Shown: piece by piece, positions 2,167-43,092 of the stretch
Numbering within the stretch: the first letter of the stretch is position 1
Layout: each line of letters opens with the position of its first letter
From: a virus
Direction: 5' to 3' (one strand)
DNA: 44,489 nt
IMG/VR virus record: IMGVR_UViG_3300037237_000099
Location: 1 to 44,489 of that record
The notes under the pieces: model-generated
Seen by the model: the letters and a program-made list of their open reading frames with translations, nothing else
What the model was told of the DNA's origin: nothing
Databases searched by the model: none
Program-made: the position numbers and the translations under genes

Positions 2167-2663
2167 ACCTAAAGCTGCATCTCGGCGTCTTCGAGTTCCC
2201 TTATTCGGTGCATGTACCAGAGAGCGGCCGCCGTGCTGTGGCCCGCCTGCGCGGAGGTAGCATTGAGAGATTTACAGCAGCACCGGCCGGCGCCGAGACT
2301 ACCGCTGACATCGCCACAATTCTCGAGGCGAAGTACCACGTCATCGAGATATTTTACGAACAAAACGCCCAGGAGATCGCCGACCTGGTGGCAGATTCGA
2401 TGGCTGGCTCGCTTGAGACCCTGATGATGGGCCAAGTGCCACGCGACCCGATGCTCGGCGCCATGAGCGCGATCGAGAAGCTGTTCAAGAATTGGATTCT
2501 CTCCGGCGGCATGGAGAAGCTGGGATACCCCGGCGTGCCGACCCAGGCTGCGCTCGATGGCGTGAATCACGCCCTGAAGCTGAAGAAGGGGCCGCGGCGC
2601 CCGTCGTTCAAGGATACCGGGCTTTACATGAGCGCCTTTCACGCATGGATGAGCAATGGTTAG
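2163..2663 (+). CDS. Putative neck / tail-completion protein
   Basis: 166 residues. The C-terminal signature RRPSFKDTGLYMSAFHAWM resembles the 'DTG-Y-x-SF-x-AW' ending seen in phage neck/virion-morphogenesis proteins, and a helical segment around residues 60-90 (AQEIADLVADSMAGSLETLM) matches that type. Its place between connector genes and the sheath fits a role in closing the neck or tail end. The ATG overlaps the preceding stop by 4 bases. Confidence 0.55.
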   Translation: MNLKLHLGVFEFPYSVHVPESGRRAVARLRGGSIERFTAAPAGAETTADIATILEAKYHVIEIFYEQNAQEIADLVADSMAGSLETLMMGQVPRDPMLGAMSAIEKLFKNWILSGGMEKLGYPGVPTQAALDGVNHALKLKKGPRRPSFKDTGLYMSAFHAWMSNG

Positions 2664-3687
2664 CATCAACGAGGCGCAAAGCTACCCGCACCGGCTCCAG
2701 GCCGGCCTGGACGCGGGCCTGGATACGCTCAGCCAGGAGCAGATCGTCACCTTCACGAAGTACATCCGGGTGGTGCTGCCCCTGGACGGCTTCGTGTTCT
2801 GGGTCCGCGCGGGCCTGGTGAACGCCTCGGCGCTCCCGAACACCGCCTTGCTGGGCCAGTTCCGGCCCGACCAGCCGGCCGCTACGGGCGGGGCCGACAC
2901 CATCACAGTCAAGGGCTCCTTTCACTATAGCGTGCAGCGCCGGCAGCTCGACGATCAAACCCTCGACGTGAACTCCTGCGTGTTTACCTCGCAGTCTTCG
3001 CTTGAGGATTTCAACTACATAAACCCCCAGATCATGTATCTGGGCGAGTTTAAGAATATTCGCTTCTCCTTCTCGCAGCGTGGCAACTTCTACCAGCAGG
3101 CGAGCCTCTGGCATTATGTCGGCGACGCGGTCTACCCGGATATGGAGACGCAGATCGTCGATACCCTGGACGGGTTCGACCTGCAGAACCGGGTGGTCTC
3201 CAACAGCCTGCCGATATGGCTGGCCCTGGATCCGTCAAACCCGCCCTACCCGTTTCCGGGCTCGCAGCGCATTCCGATGTACCCCTCGATGCTGGTACCG
3301 GATGATATCTACCCGCCCTGGTGCTCCGTCGACGTCCAGTCGACCGAAGTGCTGCTCACCGCGCCCTATATCGACTCCGCCACCGGCAGCCATTACCAAC
3401 TCGCGCAGGACGTCGTGCGGCTCACCTTCTACGGGATCCGCAATTTCAGCATTCTGGACTTCGTCGACTACGTGAACATCATGACGCAGGTCCCGGATCC
3501 GCTCTTCGGAATCATGAACCTGCCGGCGGTGCAGGATGAGAAGAAGACCCAGGCCGAGCTCTCGGTGATCGCTCAAAAGAAGTCGATCACCTACGAGATC
3601 ACCTACAACCAAACCCGCATGCGCCAGGTCGCGCAGGCGCTCATCGAGAAAGTCTTAGTCGGCTATCTCATTCAACCAGGAGTGTAA
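2656..3687 (+). CDS. Conserved tail/neck structural protein (unknown fold)
   Basis: 343 residues, overlapping the previous gene by 8 bases. No catalytic motif seen. It is rich in aromatic residues and beta-type sequence (YIRVVLPLDGFVFWVRAGL, FHYSVQRRQLDDQTLDVNS, FKNIRFSFSQRGNFYQQ) and ends with a helical segment (TQAELSVIAQKKSITYEITYNQTRMRQVAQALIEK). Length and location before the sheath suggest a virion structural component, for example a tail terminator or neck protein. Inference from synteny only. Confidence 0.55.
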   Translation: MVSINEAQSYPHRLQAGLDAGLDTLSQEQIVTFTKYIRVVLPLDGFVFWVRAGLVNASALPNTALLGQFRPDQPAATGGADTITVKGSFHYSVQRRQLDDQTLDVNSCVFTSQSSLEDFNYINPQIMYLGEFKNIRFSFSQRGNFYQQASLWHYVGDAVYPDMETQIVDTLDGFDLQNRVVSNSLPIWLALDPSNPPYPFPGSQRIPMYPSMLVPDDIYPPWCSVDVQSTEVLLTAPYIDSATGSHYQLAQDVVRLTFYGIRNFSILDFVDYVNIMTQVPDPLFGIMNLPAVQDEKKTQAELSVIAQKKSITYEITYNQTRMRQVAQALIEKVLVGYLIQPGV

Positions 3688-33658: not shown

Positions 33659-34063
33659 CTATTTCCGTCTCCGCGCCTTGCCCGCTGCGACGGCGACGGC
33701 CGCGCAGCTTCTGTGGTAGTGGACGGTGGGGCGCGACGTCACCACCGACATAGCTTCCACGTGATCCCACTTGTGGCAGTACCCGCATTTCCGCTTATCC
33801 GGGTCTCCGCTCTCTGCTAGGGCTCTCTGCCGGGTATGCAGTAGTTTGTGATACTTCTTATTCGGGCAAATCACCAAGTTTCCCGGTGCGTTATTAGCCT
33901 TATTCTCGTCGAAGTGGTGGACCTCAACTTCCGCTGGAAGTGGGCGCCCTAGCGCCTTTTCTGCAAGGGTTCGATGCTCGTAAGTGCCAGCATTCTTCCC
34001 AAAGGTTCTGTAGCCGTGAGAGGTGATGTGACCTAAACCATGCTTGCCCATCAGTATTGGCAC
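33659..34063 (-). CDS. HNH endonuclease with zinc-finger tail
   Basis: 134 residues. YEHRTLAEKALGRPLPAEVE followed by VHHFDENKANNAPGNLVICP is an HNH core (His-His...Asn...His in KYHKLLH). A C-terminal CGYCHKWDHVEAM ... YHRSC looks like a second zinc site. The gene overlaps the RecB-like gene by 13 bases. Homing-type gene inserted between replication genes. Confidence 0.75.
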   Translation of the reverse strand: MPILMGKHGLGHITSHGYRTFGKNAGTYEHRTLAEKALGRPLPAEVEVHHFDENKANNAPGNLVICPNKKYHKLLHTRQRALAESGDPDKRKCGYCHKWDHVEAMSVVTSRPTVHYHRSCAAVAVAAGKARRRK

Positions 34064-34867: not shown

Positions 34868-36808
34868 CTAGATCCCAGCCCCGACGCGAACCCCTTTCTT
34901 ATCTGTATCGAACATTTCAGCCCAATTTTTATCCGACATCGCACCTTCCGAGAGGATCTGGACGTCAAACTCGACGCTCTCCATGCAGGCCCGCAAAGTC
35001 TCCATGGCCTCCGCTGCTTCGCCCCTCGGTGCGGAGATCACGACCTCGTCGTGAACCTGGAGGATAAGATTCCAGGAGGCTCGTTTCTTCCCAAAGAAGC
35101 GGATCATTGCTTCTTTCGTGCAATCTGCTGCACTCGATTGAATTAAAGAATTAACCATTTTATACTCGAAACTAATTGTTCGACCGTCAATGATCATCGG
35201 GGGCTCACAATAATATTCTCTGCCGCCCCAGGTGCGAAGCGGGAGGCCCAACTTCGCACGGGCCTTCATATCCTTGTTCATCTCCTTCAGACCAGCATAA
35301 AGCCCGTAGATCGTGGCCTTGATCTGCCTCACCTCTTCGACGGTGGAGCCAGTCTGCTCGGCCATCTTCCCCTCGCCCATTCCGTAAATTAAGCCCAGAT
35401 TAATCCCCTTGACCTTCTTACGCGGCACGTTCGTACCCATGAGTTTGTCGAGGTGGAATTTGGCGTTGTCGTGGTAGTCGATCCAGGGGTTATCGATGTA
35501 CTGCTGCTTGAGGTCGCCGTCCTCGAAGTGCGCCAGGATGCGTGGCTCCTGCTGGCTATAGTCGCGGCCGAGCAGGACGTGGCCGGGCTTGAACGGGACG
35601 ATGTAGGACCGGCACAAGGGCAGCGCCGGCAGCTTGATCGGCATCTTCGGCAGGCGCAGCTTCTTAATGGTCTCCGCGTCTGCCTCCTCCGCAAACAAGG
35701 GTTCAAACTCTTTAGGCATGTTCTGGAAGTTCGGCGTACTGGAGAGCCGCCCCGTCCTGGTCCCGCCGTCCGGCGACTTGGTCTGGTTCCAGGTCGTGAA
35801 GATCAACCCGCCCGACGCCTCGGCCGTCGCCAGCCAGGGCCGCATGAACGTGCCCAGGCAAGTCTTGAGGGCGACCCGGTAGCGGAGGGCCTGGCAGACC
35901 TGGCGGTTGGTCACGGCGCCGTCGAGGGCGACCTTGTTGGTGCTGACGTTGCCCTTGGCTGTAACGCCCAGGGCTGCCACGTCGACCATCTTCGCGGAGT
36001 CCAGGGCGGCGACGAGCTCGGCGGCGGAATCGAAGTTCAGGAGCGGGGCCTGGATCTTCTTGCGCAGCCACGCCTCAAGCTCGACGAGCACCGCCCCGTA
36101 CATCGCCACATCGGCGCGTAGGCGATCGACGTCGACGCGGACGCCCTGGCGCTCCATCTCGCGCAGGACGATCATCAGCTGGCGCTCCCGATCGTAAGCA
36201 GCACCCATGTCCCGCTCCAGAACCGTGGCGTGGATCTTGTTGAAGATCAGCTCCGTGCGCTCGACGTCGCCGTCGGCGTACTTGCCCACGAGCTCGCCTG
36301 GCGCCCAGGCTAGGAACTTCATGAACGTGTTCTTTGACTTCGGGCCGGACGTGATTCTCACGCATGGCACCGGCTGCCGTCGGACGATCCAGTCAGCCAC
36401 CGCGTCGCGTTCATCTTCCGGCATTTCGAGCAAGCGCTTGGCGGCCGGCTTGAGGCCCATGTTCTTCTGGTTCGGGTCGTCCAGGAAGAGGAGTAGCATC
36501 GTATCATGGAGCCGATCCCAGGGCAGCGGCGGCATGCCCATGTGGATCTCGGCCAGCTCCATATCGAACTTTGCGTGATGCATGAGCACGCCGGCTGGGT
36601 GGTTCCACGCCTCCGCCAAGGCACGCTGCGCCTCAGCAAAGATACTGTTGTTTCCTTCGATGTGGCCCCAGGAGTAGTGCCTGCTCTTTTTGCCGGAGTA
36701 CTTGATGGAGACGCCGGTCGGCGGCGGCGGATAAAATGGGGCGGCGTCGATCGCGACGCTCTCGAAATCGACTGTTACGGGCTTCGGCGCTTTGGGTTTC
36801 TTAGCCAT
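34868..36808 (-). CDS. DNA polymerase I, family A
   Basis: 646 residues. An N-terminal 3'-5' exonuclease domain starts at VTVDFESVAI (Asp14, Glu16) with LMHHAKFDME (Asp82). The polymerase domain has motif A LGRDYSQQEPRI (Asp416), the O-helix RKKVKGINLGLIYG with Leu471 at the position of E. coli Phe762, and motif C LQVHDEVVIS (Asp587). No 5'-3' exonuclease domain. It is the replicative polymerase of the phage. An HNH gene lies upstream with an 8-base overlap. Confidence 0.9.
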   Translation of the reverse strand: MAKKPKAPKPVTVDFESVAIDAAPFYPPPPTGVSIKYSGKKSRHYSWGHIEGNNSIFAEAQRALAEAWNHPAGVLMHHAKFDMELAEIHMGMPPLPWDRLHDTMLLLFLDDPNQKNMGLKPAAKRLLEMPEDERDAVADWIVRRQPVPCVRITSGPKSKNTFMKFLAWAPGELVGKYADGDVERTELIFNKIHATVLERDMGAAYDRERQLMIVLREMERQGVRVDVDRLRADVAMYGAVLVELEAWLRKKIQAPLLNFDSAAELVAALDSAKMVDVAALGVTAKGNVSTNKVALDGAVTNRQVCQALRYRVALKTCLGTFMRPWLATAEASGGLIFTTWNQTKSPDGGTRTGRLSSTPNFQNMPKEFEPLFAEEADAETIKKLRLPKMPIKLPALPLCRSYIVPFKPGHVLLGRDYSQQEPRILAHFEDGDLKQQYIDNPWIDYHDNAKFHLDKLMGTNVPRKKVKGINLGLIYGMGEGKMAEQTGSTVEEVRQIKATIYGLYAGLKEMNKDMKARAKLGLPLRTWGGREYYCEPPMIIDGRTISFEYKMVNSLIQSSAADCTKEAMIRFFGKKRASWNLILQVHDEVVISAPRGEAAEAMETLRACMESVEFDVQILSEGAMSDKNWAEMFDTDKKGVRVGAGI

Positions 36809-37136
36809 GAAGTCTCGCTTCTTTTGGAGCGGGGGCGAAGAGCACAGCCTCTCCGCGGTGGGTGTTTTCTTTGACGGTCACCGGCTCAGTGTGCCAGGGA
36901 TTCACGCAGTATCTCCGCCGGCAGAGGTGATCGAGGATCAAACCCTCCGGTATCGGGCCGATAAACTCTTCGTAGAGGATTCGGTGGACCTGGCGCTCTT
37001 TCTTCCCGTCCCAGGCTCGGCCGTAGCCATTCCGGGACCACCTGGACCCCACCCAGCACCAGCATGAAAGCGGGAGCTGGGTGGGGTCTGGGCTGGCTAC
37101 TGCGATGACCGACTTTAGCAGTCGGTCGCGCAGCAT
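36801..37136 (-). CDS. HNH endonuclease (HNH_3-like)
   Basis: 111 residues. CWCWVGSRWSRNGYGRAWDG, VHRILYEEFIGPIPEGLILD, HLCRRRYCVNPWHTEPVTVK and EN-x-HRG are the standard order of this phage HNH family, with the H...C-x-N-P-x-H core complete. Located directly before the polymerase gene, a common site for homing endonucleases. Confidence 0.8.
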   Translation of the reverse strand: MLRDRLLKSVIAVASPDPTQLPLSCWCWVGSRWSRNGYGRAWDGKKERQVHRILYEEFIGPIPEGLILDHLCRRRYCVNPWHTEPVTVKENTHRGEAVLFAPAPKEARLHG

Positions 37137-39456: not shown

Positions 39457-39888
39457 TTAGTTCGAGAAGGAGGTGAATCCGTTCTCGCCCGACAGGGTCA
39501 GGTTGGTGTCGAAGGTGGCGATCGCCTGGCCGTAGGAGTTGCCGTTCTCGTTGATCAACCCGCCGGAGGCCAGACCGCCGCCGACGTTAAAGCTCGTGGA
39601 GACGCTGCCGGCGTTCAGGCCGTCCGGGCTGCTGGAAATCGTCGTGGTGCCGATACCAGCGTTGCCGCTGATTGCGAAGGCCGTGGTGCCGAGCGGGGCA
39701 GTGGCCTCGCCGGAAGAGATGCTCTGCGAGCCGCTGCCGATCGTGTCCGTGGTGCTGGATGTGATCGAGAAGGGCGTGCCGGTGGAGCTGGACCCCGAGG
39801 AGCCGCTACCCGAGGAGCCGTTGCTGCCGTTGGCCAGGGCCAGGGCCGGCAGAGCGAAGAGGGCAGTCGCAAGAAGAAGTTTACGCAT
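39457..39888 (-). CDS. Secreted Ser/Gly/Thr-rich protein
   Basis: 143 residues from ATG 39888. Signal peptide RKLLLATALFALPALALA, cleavage near ALA-NG. A Ser/Gly linker (GSNGSSGSGSSGSSSTGTPF) precedes a repetitive beta-type region (SITSSTTDTIGSGSQSISSG ... FNVGGGLASGGLINENGNSY) like bacterial adhesin or curli-type sequence. Paired with the other secreted protein at 38782-39393. Confidence 0.65.
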   Translation of the reverse strand: MRKLLLATALFALPALALANGSNGSSGSGSSGSSSTGTPFSITSSTTDTIGSGSQSISSGEATAPLGTTAFAISGNAGIGTTTISSSPDGLNAGSVSTSFNVGGGLASGGLINENGNSYGQAIATFDTNLTLSGENGFTSFSN

Positions 39889-40202: not shown

Positions 40203-40790
40203 TCATCGCCCACCTTGGGCGTTGATCTTGGGGGTCCGAACGCTGACCGCGATGGCTACGTGGATCTCGCAATACCGGACGTGGTTCTTGAGGCCCCGGT
40301 TGCAGAAGTGAAATCCGTGCTTCCCTGGCTCCCCTACGGGCCAGCAGCAGAAGCTCCCGGGCTTCGGGGCGGCGATGTGCCGGATCTTCGCCCCAGGCCA
40401 CGCCTCGATCGCTTCGTCCGAAAGGTCGTCGTATTTGGGGTTAGGCGAACGGGCGGGGGCCGGCATGTTATCCCGCCTTTCGACCGGCGCTTCCTCTTGC
40501 ACCGGCTGGCCCTCCGCCTTCGCCGCCCGGGCGGCGTTGGCAGCTTTGAGACTCTTGTCCTGGGAGTGCTGGCGCCCTCGGAGGCTGGGATGCGCGGCGC
40601 TTATCATCTGGCGCCGGTAGTCAAACTGGCCCTTCGAGATCCCGATCGCTGCGACAATGTCGGCGCGCGGGGTTTTCTCCCGGAGTTCGGACATGATGTA
40701 CTCGTCGAGCTCCTGGACCTGTTGCGGCGTCATCACCTTGTAGTCGATGAGATTGTACTTCACCCAGGAGGGGGGTTCATTCTTGACCAT
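40203..40790 (-). CDS. GcrA-like transcription regulator
   Basis: 195 residues. The C-terminus FCCWPVGEPGKHGFHFCNRG with VRYCEIHVAIAV matches the C-terminal signature of the alphaproteobacterial cell-cycle regulator GcrA (C-x-W-P-x-G-x-P...F-x-FC...YC-x-x-H), Cys148/149, Cys163, Cys174, His177. An N-terminal HTH-like region (VQELDEYIMSELREKTPRAD, VAAIGISKGQF) fits too. GcrA binds RNA polymerase sigma70 and activates methylated promoters, so the phage copy probably redirects host transcription. Confidence 0.75.
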   Translation of the reverse strand: MVKNEPPSWVKYNLIDYKVMTPQQVQELDEYIMSELREKTPRADIVAAIGISKGQFDYRRQMISAAHPSLRGRQHSQDKSLKAANAARAAKAEGQPVQEEAPVERRDNMPAPARSPNPKYDDLSDEAIEAWPGAKIRHIAAPKPGSFCCWPVGEPGKHGFHFCNRGLKNHVRYCEIHVAIAVSVRTPKINAQGGR

Positions 40791-40793
40791 CGT

Positions 40794-41480
40794 CTAGGAT
40801 CCAATCTTCGCTTGTTCGGCGGCGCTGCCAGTCATCGGCTGGTAGATGCTCTCCTTCTCGCCGGCCTGCCACCCCTCGGAGATTCCGAGCTGGGTGCTCT
40901 CCGTCTTCTTGGCTTCGGCGAACTTGGGGGCGGGGCCGAGGTTCTTCGCGATGAATGCTTCGCGGGCCTTCGCCTCCTCGGGACCGATCGCCAGGTCGGT
41001 GACCTTTTTTCGGATGGCAAGGATCCAGCCCTTGCAGAACCCGTTCGCAGAGTTCTCGGCGAGGTTATCAGGGAGGAAGAAGGGCAGGGCGGCGACGTAA
41101 TCCTCGCGAGCCCGCATCAGCCGGCGACCCAGCGTCATGGCTGCATACTCAGCCATCTGGACCCGATGCTGCATGCCGATGATCTTGTACTCTCCTCTGG
41201 CGCCATTTTCTCCGGCGTACCAGGCGAGCTCGCACCCAAATGCGTCGGAGACGGTGCGGAGGAGAAATGCCTCCCAGTCCGTCGGCGCCCTACCCCGGAG
41301 CTGACTCTTGACCGAGCCGATCCCAATTTCGGAGAGCTGGATCTGCATGCTGGTGACGTCATGCTCGATCATGAGCGCCTGGGCTTTCGCCAAGGCAGAT
41401 GCAGATTCGTGCTCGTTTTGGGATTCGGAGAGGGCGAGGAGTTTTTTGATCTTCTCGAGAACTTTAAGGTCGGCAGTCAC
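40794..41480 (-). CDS. DUF2786-domain protein
   Basis: 228 residues from GTG 41480 after AAGGAG. DLKVLEKIKKLLALSESQNE with HESASALAKAQALMIEHDVT is the DUF2786 signature; the rest (WEAFLLRTVSDAFGCELAWY, IIGMQHRVQMAEYAAMTLGR) is the usual downstream domain. Function unknown; common in phages. Uses the same AGCC-AAGGAGCTTA leader as the promoter A-C genes. Confidence 0.8.
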   Translation of the reverse strand: MTADLKVLEKIKKLLALSESQNEHESASALAKAQALMIEHDVTSMQIQLSEIGIGSVKSQLRGRAPTDWEAFLLRTVSDAFGCELAWYAGENGARGEYKIIGMQHRVQMAEYAAMTLGRRLMRAREDYVAALPFFLPDNLAENSANGFCKGWILAIRKKVTDLAIGPEEAKAREAFIAKNLGPAPKFAEAKKTESTQLGISEGWQAGEKESIYQPMTGSAAEQAKIGS

Positions 41481-41845: not shown

Positions 41846-42124
41846 TCAATACTTCTTACCTATCCCGGAGCAGGGTAGGCACGGGGTGACGAGCACGCTG
41901 AAGCCGCGCTGTGTGTGGATCACGCCACGCCCCTTGCACGTCGGGCAGGGTGTTGCGGCCGCGAGGGCAAGGGCTGCGCGGTTCGCCTCCTGGAGCGCGT
42001 TGAACGCCTCGGGGGTGCCGCCGGCATCAGGGTGCGCTGTCTTGGCGAGCTCCCAATAAGCGCGCCGGATCTCGGTCGGTGACGCGGTCTCGGGAAGGTT
42101 TAGGATCTCAAAAGGGGTAGGCAT
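41846..42124 (-). CDS. DnaJ-domain protein with zinc finger
   Basis: 92 residues. PTPFEILNLPETASPTEIRR, AYWELAKTAHPDAGGTPEAF gives a J-domain with the HPD motif; CPTCKGRGVI...CLPCSGIG is a DnaJ-type zinc finger. Could bring host DnaK to phage replication or assembly complexes. Full, though minimal. Confidence 0.8.
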   Translation of the reverse strand: MPTPFEILNLPETASPTEIRRAYWELAKTAHPDAGGTPEAFNALQEANRAALALAAATPCPTCKGRGVIHTQRGFSVLVTPCLPCSGIGKKY

Positions 42125-42969: not shown

Positions 42970-43027
42970 GTTTTTGATCCTCTTTGGATGTTGTTGAAAA
43001 GGCAGTGAAGTATTCGCCGCTACGTTT

Positions 43028-43056
43028 TTACTAATGATAAAAATTTATTTTGTAAA
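43028..43056 (-). promoter_or_regulatory. Candidate early promoter in an AT-rich gap
   Basis: TTTACA (43056-43051), 17 AT-rich bases, TAGTAA (43033-43028), upstream of the 42969 start. AT-rich surroundings resemble promoters A-C; the -10 is poor. Confidence 0.4.
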
Positions 43057-43092
43057 CGGTGGGGGTTCGTTTTTATACTAGAAAATAGAGAT

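Follow-up and report, generated by a model that had tools for sequence, protein, structure and literature searches.

The minus-strand gene at 40203-40790 raises the question of whether this virus carries GcrA itself or a protein that shares only the sigma-interacting part of GcrA. The window, i.e., the whole stretch of DNA analysed, is a 44,489-base virus contig of the IMG/VR type, with 61% GC and genes for a tail sheath and a baseplate. GcrA copies in phages are already established. Homologues are described in five of six phiCbK-like phages (PMC3556154), in Agrobacterium phage Atu_ph08 (PMC6630229) and in further phages; what they do has been a matter of discussion and not of experiment, at least in the accessible parts of the literature (e.g., PMC9437464). 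The unusual and new element in the window protein is its replaced N-terminus; the open-licence phage GcrA literature, in the portions available, contains no description of an N-terminal swap on the GcrA sigma-interacting domain (SID).

Gene organisation and surroundings

The gene is a real open reading frame (ORF) of 195 amino acids with an ATG start, and its codon-position GC (0.63/0.45/0.82) is of the coding type, like that of other genes in the record. The ATG lies 3 bases past the stop of the upstream DUF2786/DUF7168 gene, and with this spacing the two genes are probably co-transcribed. The features are as follows.

40203..40790, minus strand: gene for the SID protein with a non-GcrA N-terminus, 195 aa; its ATG is 3 bases past the stop of the upstream gene
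40794..41480, minus strand: DUF2786/DUF7168 gene (phrog_421) upstream of the SID gene, from the family match and the 3-base spacing
40593..40727, minus strand: residues 22-66, predicted three-helix, HTH-like domain (AlphaFold2 model), without recognisable homology to the GcrA DNA-binding domain (DBD)
40362..40592, minus strand: residues 67-143, Ala/Pro-rich linker with a predicted helix at 68-92, from composition, length and model
40221..40361, minus strand: residues 144-190, GcrA-type SID by sequence and model (C148, W150, P151, G153, P155, F160, C163, Y173, C174, H177)

A 423-aa plus-strand ORF running across both genes was rejected as an antisense artefact, because the SID gene adjoins a same-strand gene with a clear DUF7168 match and both minus-strand genes have family matches. 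Other members of the minus-strand gene run containing the SID gene encode a family A DNA polymerase and a helicase of the SNF2 type, and an A/T-rich gap within the run (42970-43092) may contain its promoter, from which the SID gene would also be transcribed. Shortly downstream of the SID gene, the same run encodes a small Gly/Ser/Thr-rich protein with an apparent signal peptide (MRKLLLATALFALPALALA; 39457-39888, minus strand). A 92-aa protein at 41846-42124 (minus strand) combines a DnaJ J-domain with a zinc motif of the DnaJ type and weakly matches Anti-TRAP. HNH_3 endonuclease genes at 33659-34063 and 36801-37136 (minus strand) flank the polymerase and PD-(D/E)XK nuclease genes, and these two genes beside the polymerase are possible homing endonucleases.

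Homology of the C-terminal region to GcrA

Sequence comparison and structure prediction together place a GcrA-type SID at residues ca. 144-190. The Pfam GcrA profile (PF07750) matched the whole protein with an E-value of 1.1e-5 and 26.3 bits, just below the curated cut-off of 26.9, and the alignment was confined to residues 70-182, corresponding to profile positions 45-145. The profile search proposed in the initial annotation thus recovered the SID region but fell short of the family threshold. The top phmmer matches were the GcrA chains 5yix_B (E 1.2e-4) and 7ye1_G (E 0.007). Separate DBD and SID HMMs were built from 16 GcrA-like proteins of viral contigs; with the latter, the window protein scored 52.4 bits (E 2.3e-15), far above chance and within the 45-91 bits spanned by held-out phage GcrAs. 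All ten invariant SID columns (C, W, P, G, P, F, C, Y, C and H) were kept in a 16-sequence alignment that included the window protein. The C-terminal Cys/Trp-Pro/Phe-Cys/Tyr-Cys/His signature noted at the outset was therefore well founded, given the HMM score and the phmmer match to 5yix_B.

In the AlphaFold2 model, built with a 25-sequence alignment, the mean pLDDT in blocks of 10 residues was 87-96 between residues 141 and 180. Foldseek matched the predicted SID to 5yix_B, the GcrA SID in complex with sigma70 domain 2, with a probability of 1.00, an E-value of 0.023 and an rmsd of 1.2 A over 36 columns, and a VIA superposition of the SID model on the same chain gave Z 3.5 with rmsd 2.4 over 39 residues. 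When the full model was used in the fold search, only the SID was matched. A relation to GcrA is thus present for the SID in profile and structure searches alike.

Linker and N-terminal half

In C. crescentus GcrA, the DBD spans residues 1-45, the linker 46-107 and the SID 108-173, according to PMC7403470. In the window protein, the stretch up to the SID comprises ca. 81 residues, against a median of 71 and a range of 10-278 among the 65 viral homologues whose linker was measurable by a simple pattern. The Ala/Pro-rich middle, earlier described as longer than usual, is not unusually long.

The initial annotation had also read the N-terminus as HTH-like and matching GcrA. Residues 1-78 scored -1.4 bits against the GcrA DBD HMM, a value equalled or bettered by 338 of 1000 shuffles, and searches of Pfam, PHROGs and NCBIfam with residues 1-80 gave no match at E-values of 10 or less. 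The test has power, because 13 held-out phage GcrAs used as positive controls, phiCbK gp222 included, scored 14.9-96.8 bits and the 16 training sequences scored 38-87 bits in leave-one-out runs. Moreover, the Pfam match begins only at profile position 45, and the W-T-x-E start and the TRNAVIGKxHR helix of the alignment consensus are missing. A scan of all six frames of the window yielded no canonical DBD at any other position (best score 6.8 bits, E 0.33), so nothing indicates that a frameshift or gene split conceals one. Weak matches of the N-terminus to bromodomain proteins (best E 0.14) were taken as chance. On this sequence evidence, residues 1-80 are no recognisable GcrA DBD, and of the proposed GcrA-like regulator, the sigma-interacting half is homologous to GcrA but the DNA-reading half is not.

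The alignment-based AlphaFold2 model predicted helices at residues 22-38, 43-49 and 53-66 with middling pLDDT (ca. 65-81). The HTH-like plan is regarded as a lead rather than a result, because the model was poor without an alignment (single-sequence pLDDT of the protein only 38.7). With tblastn, the whole protein had no close relative among phages (E up to 0.01) or in viral or genome contigs; a plasmid search with it matched alphaproteobacterial GcrA genes, but at the level of the SID only.

Compared with C. crescentus GcrA (PF07750; 5yix, 7ye1), the window protein has a SID with all invariant residues and the same order of parts (N-terminal helical domain, linker, SID; 173 aa in GcrA vs. 195 aa here). 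It differs in having no recognisable GcrA DBD and in scoring only 30.1 bits with the NCBIfam GcrA orthologue model NF050816, against an equivalog cut-off of 280. The phage GcrA homologues, phiCbK gp222 among them (PMC3556154; PMC6630229), are likewise phage-borne SID proteins for which a redirection of host transcription has been proposed; unlike the window protein, however, gp222 has a canonical GcrA DBD (44 bits), and its Pfam match (89 bits) is nearly full-length. The window protein is best classified as GcrA-related and SID-bearing rather than as GcrA itself, because it has no detectable GcrA DBD and scores below the curated cut-offs.

SID architectures among viral contigs

At least 96 distinct ORFs of viral contigs had a SID, of which 88 had a canonical DBD and eight lacked one, a rough proportion obtained from four pattern-based scans with thresholds of >20 bits for the SID and ≥10 bits for the DBD. 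Among the latter, L118 and L119 were discarded as ORFs cut by contig ends, and L141 as having a canonical DBD in another frame. Five ORFs were apparently intact: L127 and L147, with N-termini other than the GcrA DBD; L145 (94 aa) and L084 (99 aa), which are hardly more than a SID; and the second SID gene of L038. The architecture of a SID without a canonical DBD is therefore rare but recurrent. These IMG/VR proteins share it with the window protein, whereas phmmer detected no relationship between their N-termini and its own. The polymerase relatives (L007-L009, L020-L022) and DUF7168 relatives (L010-L019) of the window contained no SID above 11.3 bits, and thus no orthologue was detected at the corresponding position.

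Other features of SID-bearing contigs were observed. The second SID gene of L038 (4159-5637) encodes 492 aa, with a SID score of 35.5 bits and a Pfam GcrA E-value of 2.3e-8, and it overlaps the end of a canonical GcrA gene by four bases, so that the two form tandem SID proteins. In L031 and L032 (3386-4144), a viral GcrA-like protein has CPEC instead of C..H at the last SID ligand position. The Pfam GcrA model also exceeded its cut-off in a control genome, that of the archaeon Sulfolobus acidocaldarius.

GANTC composition and putative host

GANTC occurred 74 times against 104 expected from a maximal-order Markov estimate (ratio 0.71), and it was the most under-represented of the 16 XYNY'X' palindromes; the Poisson P of 0.001 ignores the error of the expected-count estimate. 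The pooled ratio was 0.53 in contigs carrying viral GcrA SIDs, pools of six further SID contigs had a median ratio of 0.58 (5-95%: 0.39-0.76), and the ratio was 0.79-0.95 in L020-L022, which are parts of three phages with related polymerases. Such depletion suits an alphaproteobacterial host with CcrM, and the SID homologues in named phages were mostly from Caulobacter, Brevundimonas and Rhizobium phages.

The closest relatives of other genes lie elsewhere. The DNA polymerase (34868-36808, minus strand) was closest to those of an environmental phage and of Pseudoxanthomonas and Stenotrophomonas phages (52-55% identity), and a tail-region protein (2656-3687, plus strand) was closest to those of Klebsiella, Yersinia and Pantoea phages. 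Judged by these affinities, the genome is a mosaic of a Xanthomonadaceae-phage-like polymerase and a Klebsiella/Yersinia/Pantoea-phage-like tail-region protein. A search for prophage relatives with the tail-region protein returned nothing in genome or viral contigs. Canonical GcrA was also found in two phages labelled Synechococcus, L002 (PP438432.1) and OM868079.1; these two have been given the wrong host, or else GcrA also moves beyond alphaproteobacteria. The alphaproteobacterial host proposed initially is thus favoured by the SID homologues and the GANTC depletion but not by the Synechococcus-labelled carriers or by the polymerase and tail affinities, and it appears plausible.

The initial annotation further envisaged a takeover of methylated host promoters. 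This idea depends on the DNA-reading half, where homology to GcrA fails, and is therefore unsupported. Of the 74 GANTC sites, eight were intergenic against 5.5 expected, which is no clear enrichment between genes, and a search of the record for N6/N4 methyltransferases (PF01555) was negative; for these reasons, nothing ties the SID protein to methylated promoters.

Possible role of the SID protein

The explanation that we favour, at about even chances, is that the protein is a retargeted phage sigma70 cofactor, in which a sigma70-recruiting SID is mounted on a non-GcrA, HTH-like domain and directed away from methylated GANTC. By analogy with C. crescentus GcrA, the SID would bind the housekeeping sigma factor of the host at its region 2. 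The N-terminal HTH-like domain may recognise a different DNA signal, which probably lies close to phage promoters. The linker would allow both domains to cooperate in bringing host RNA polymerase there or stabilising it. With the SID on the host sigma factor and the N-terminus on a different signal, GcrA's grip on the polymerase would thus be used without dependence on CcrM-methylated GANTC. This explanation is supported by the conserved SID, the DBD HMM score of -1.4 bits, the HTH-like prediction and the similar architectures in L127, L147, L145, L084 and L038.

Alternatively, the SID could serve as a decoy or competitor that occupies sigma70 region 2, displaces host GcrA and lowers the methylation-dependent cell-cycle regulon, with the N-terminus having another purpose or contributing only stability. 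Short SID-only viral proteins such as those of L145 and L084 could act only by sigma binding, but the long linker and the predicted folded N-terminus of the window protein exceed the needs of a decoy, and we consider this role unlikely here.

It is also rather improbable that the protein is an ordinary phage GcrA with a very divergent DBD that still reads methylated GANTC. Although the domain order and three-helix plan are those of GcrA itself, and GANTC is depleted as in contigs with canonical phage GcrA, the N-terminus scored at shuffle level, whereas every held-out phage GcrA reached ca. 15 bits or more; the lowest of these, the named phage GcrA RHph_X2_24 (14.9 bits), indicates that a weak DBD does occur in this group. 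The missing consensus motifs and the lack of clear intergenic GANTC enrichment also argue against a methylation-reading DBD. A SID that has drifted to another role, e.g., binding another protein, with its likeness to GcrA reflecting ancestry only, would fit the scores below the Pfam and far below the NCBIfam cut-offs and the lack of close tblastn relatives, but is very unlikely given that every invariant SID column is kept, beyond the Cys and His ones.

The retargeting explanation predicts sigma70 binding without methylation dependence. More tentatively, and with somewhat less than even confidence, phages may use the GcrA SID as a movable part that recruits sigma70 and combine it with various DNA-binding domains, which would yield a class of retargeted polymerase-recruitment factors independent of CcrM methylation. 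On that view, the window protein would be one independent instance, and others would be L127, L147 and the second of the SID genes in L038. Phage GcrA homologues have hitherto been described, in the texts available, as host-like cell-cycle regulators. If the SID has been separated from the reader of methylated GANTC, GcrA's grip on sigma70 would represent a general phage route to the host polymerase.
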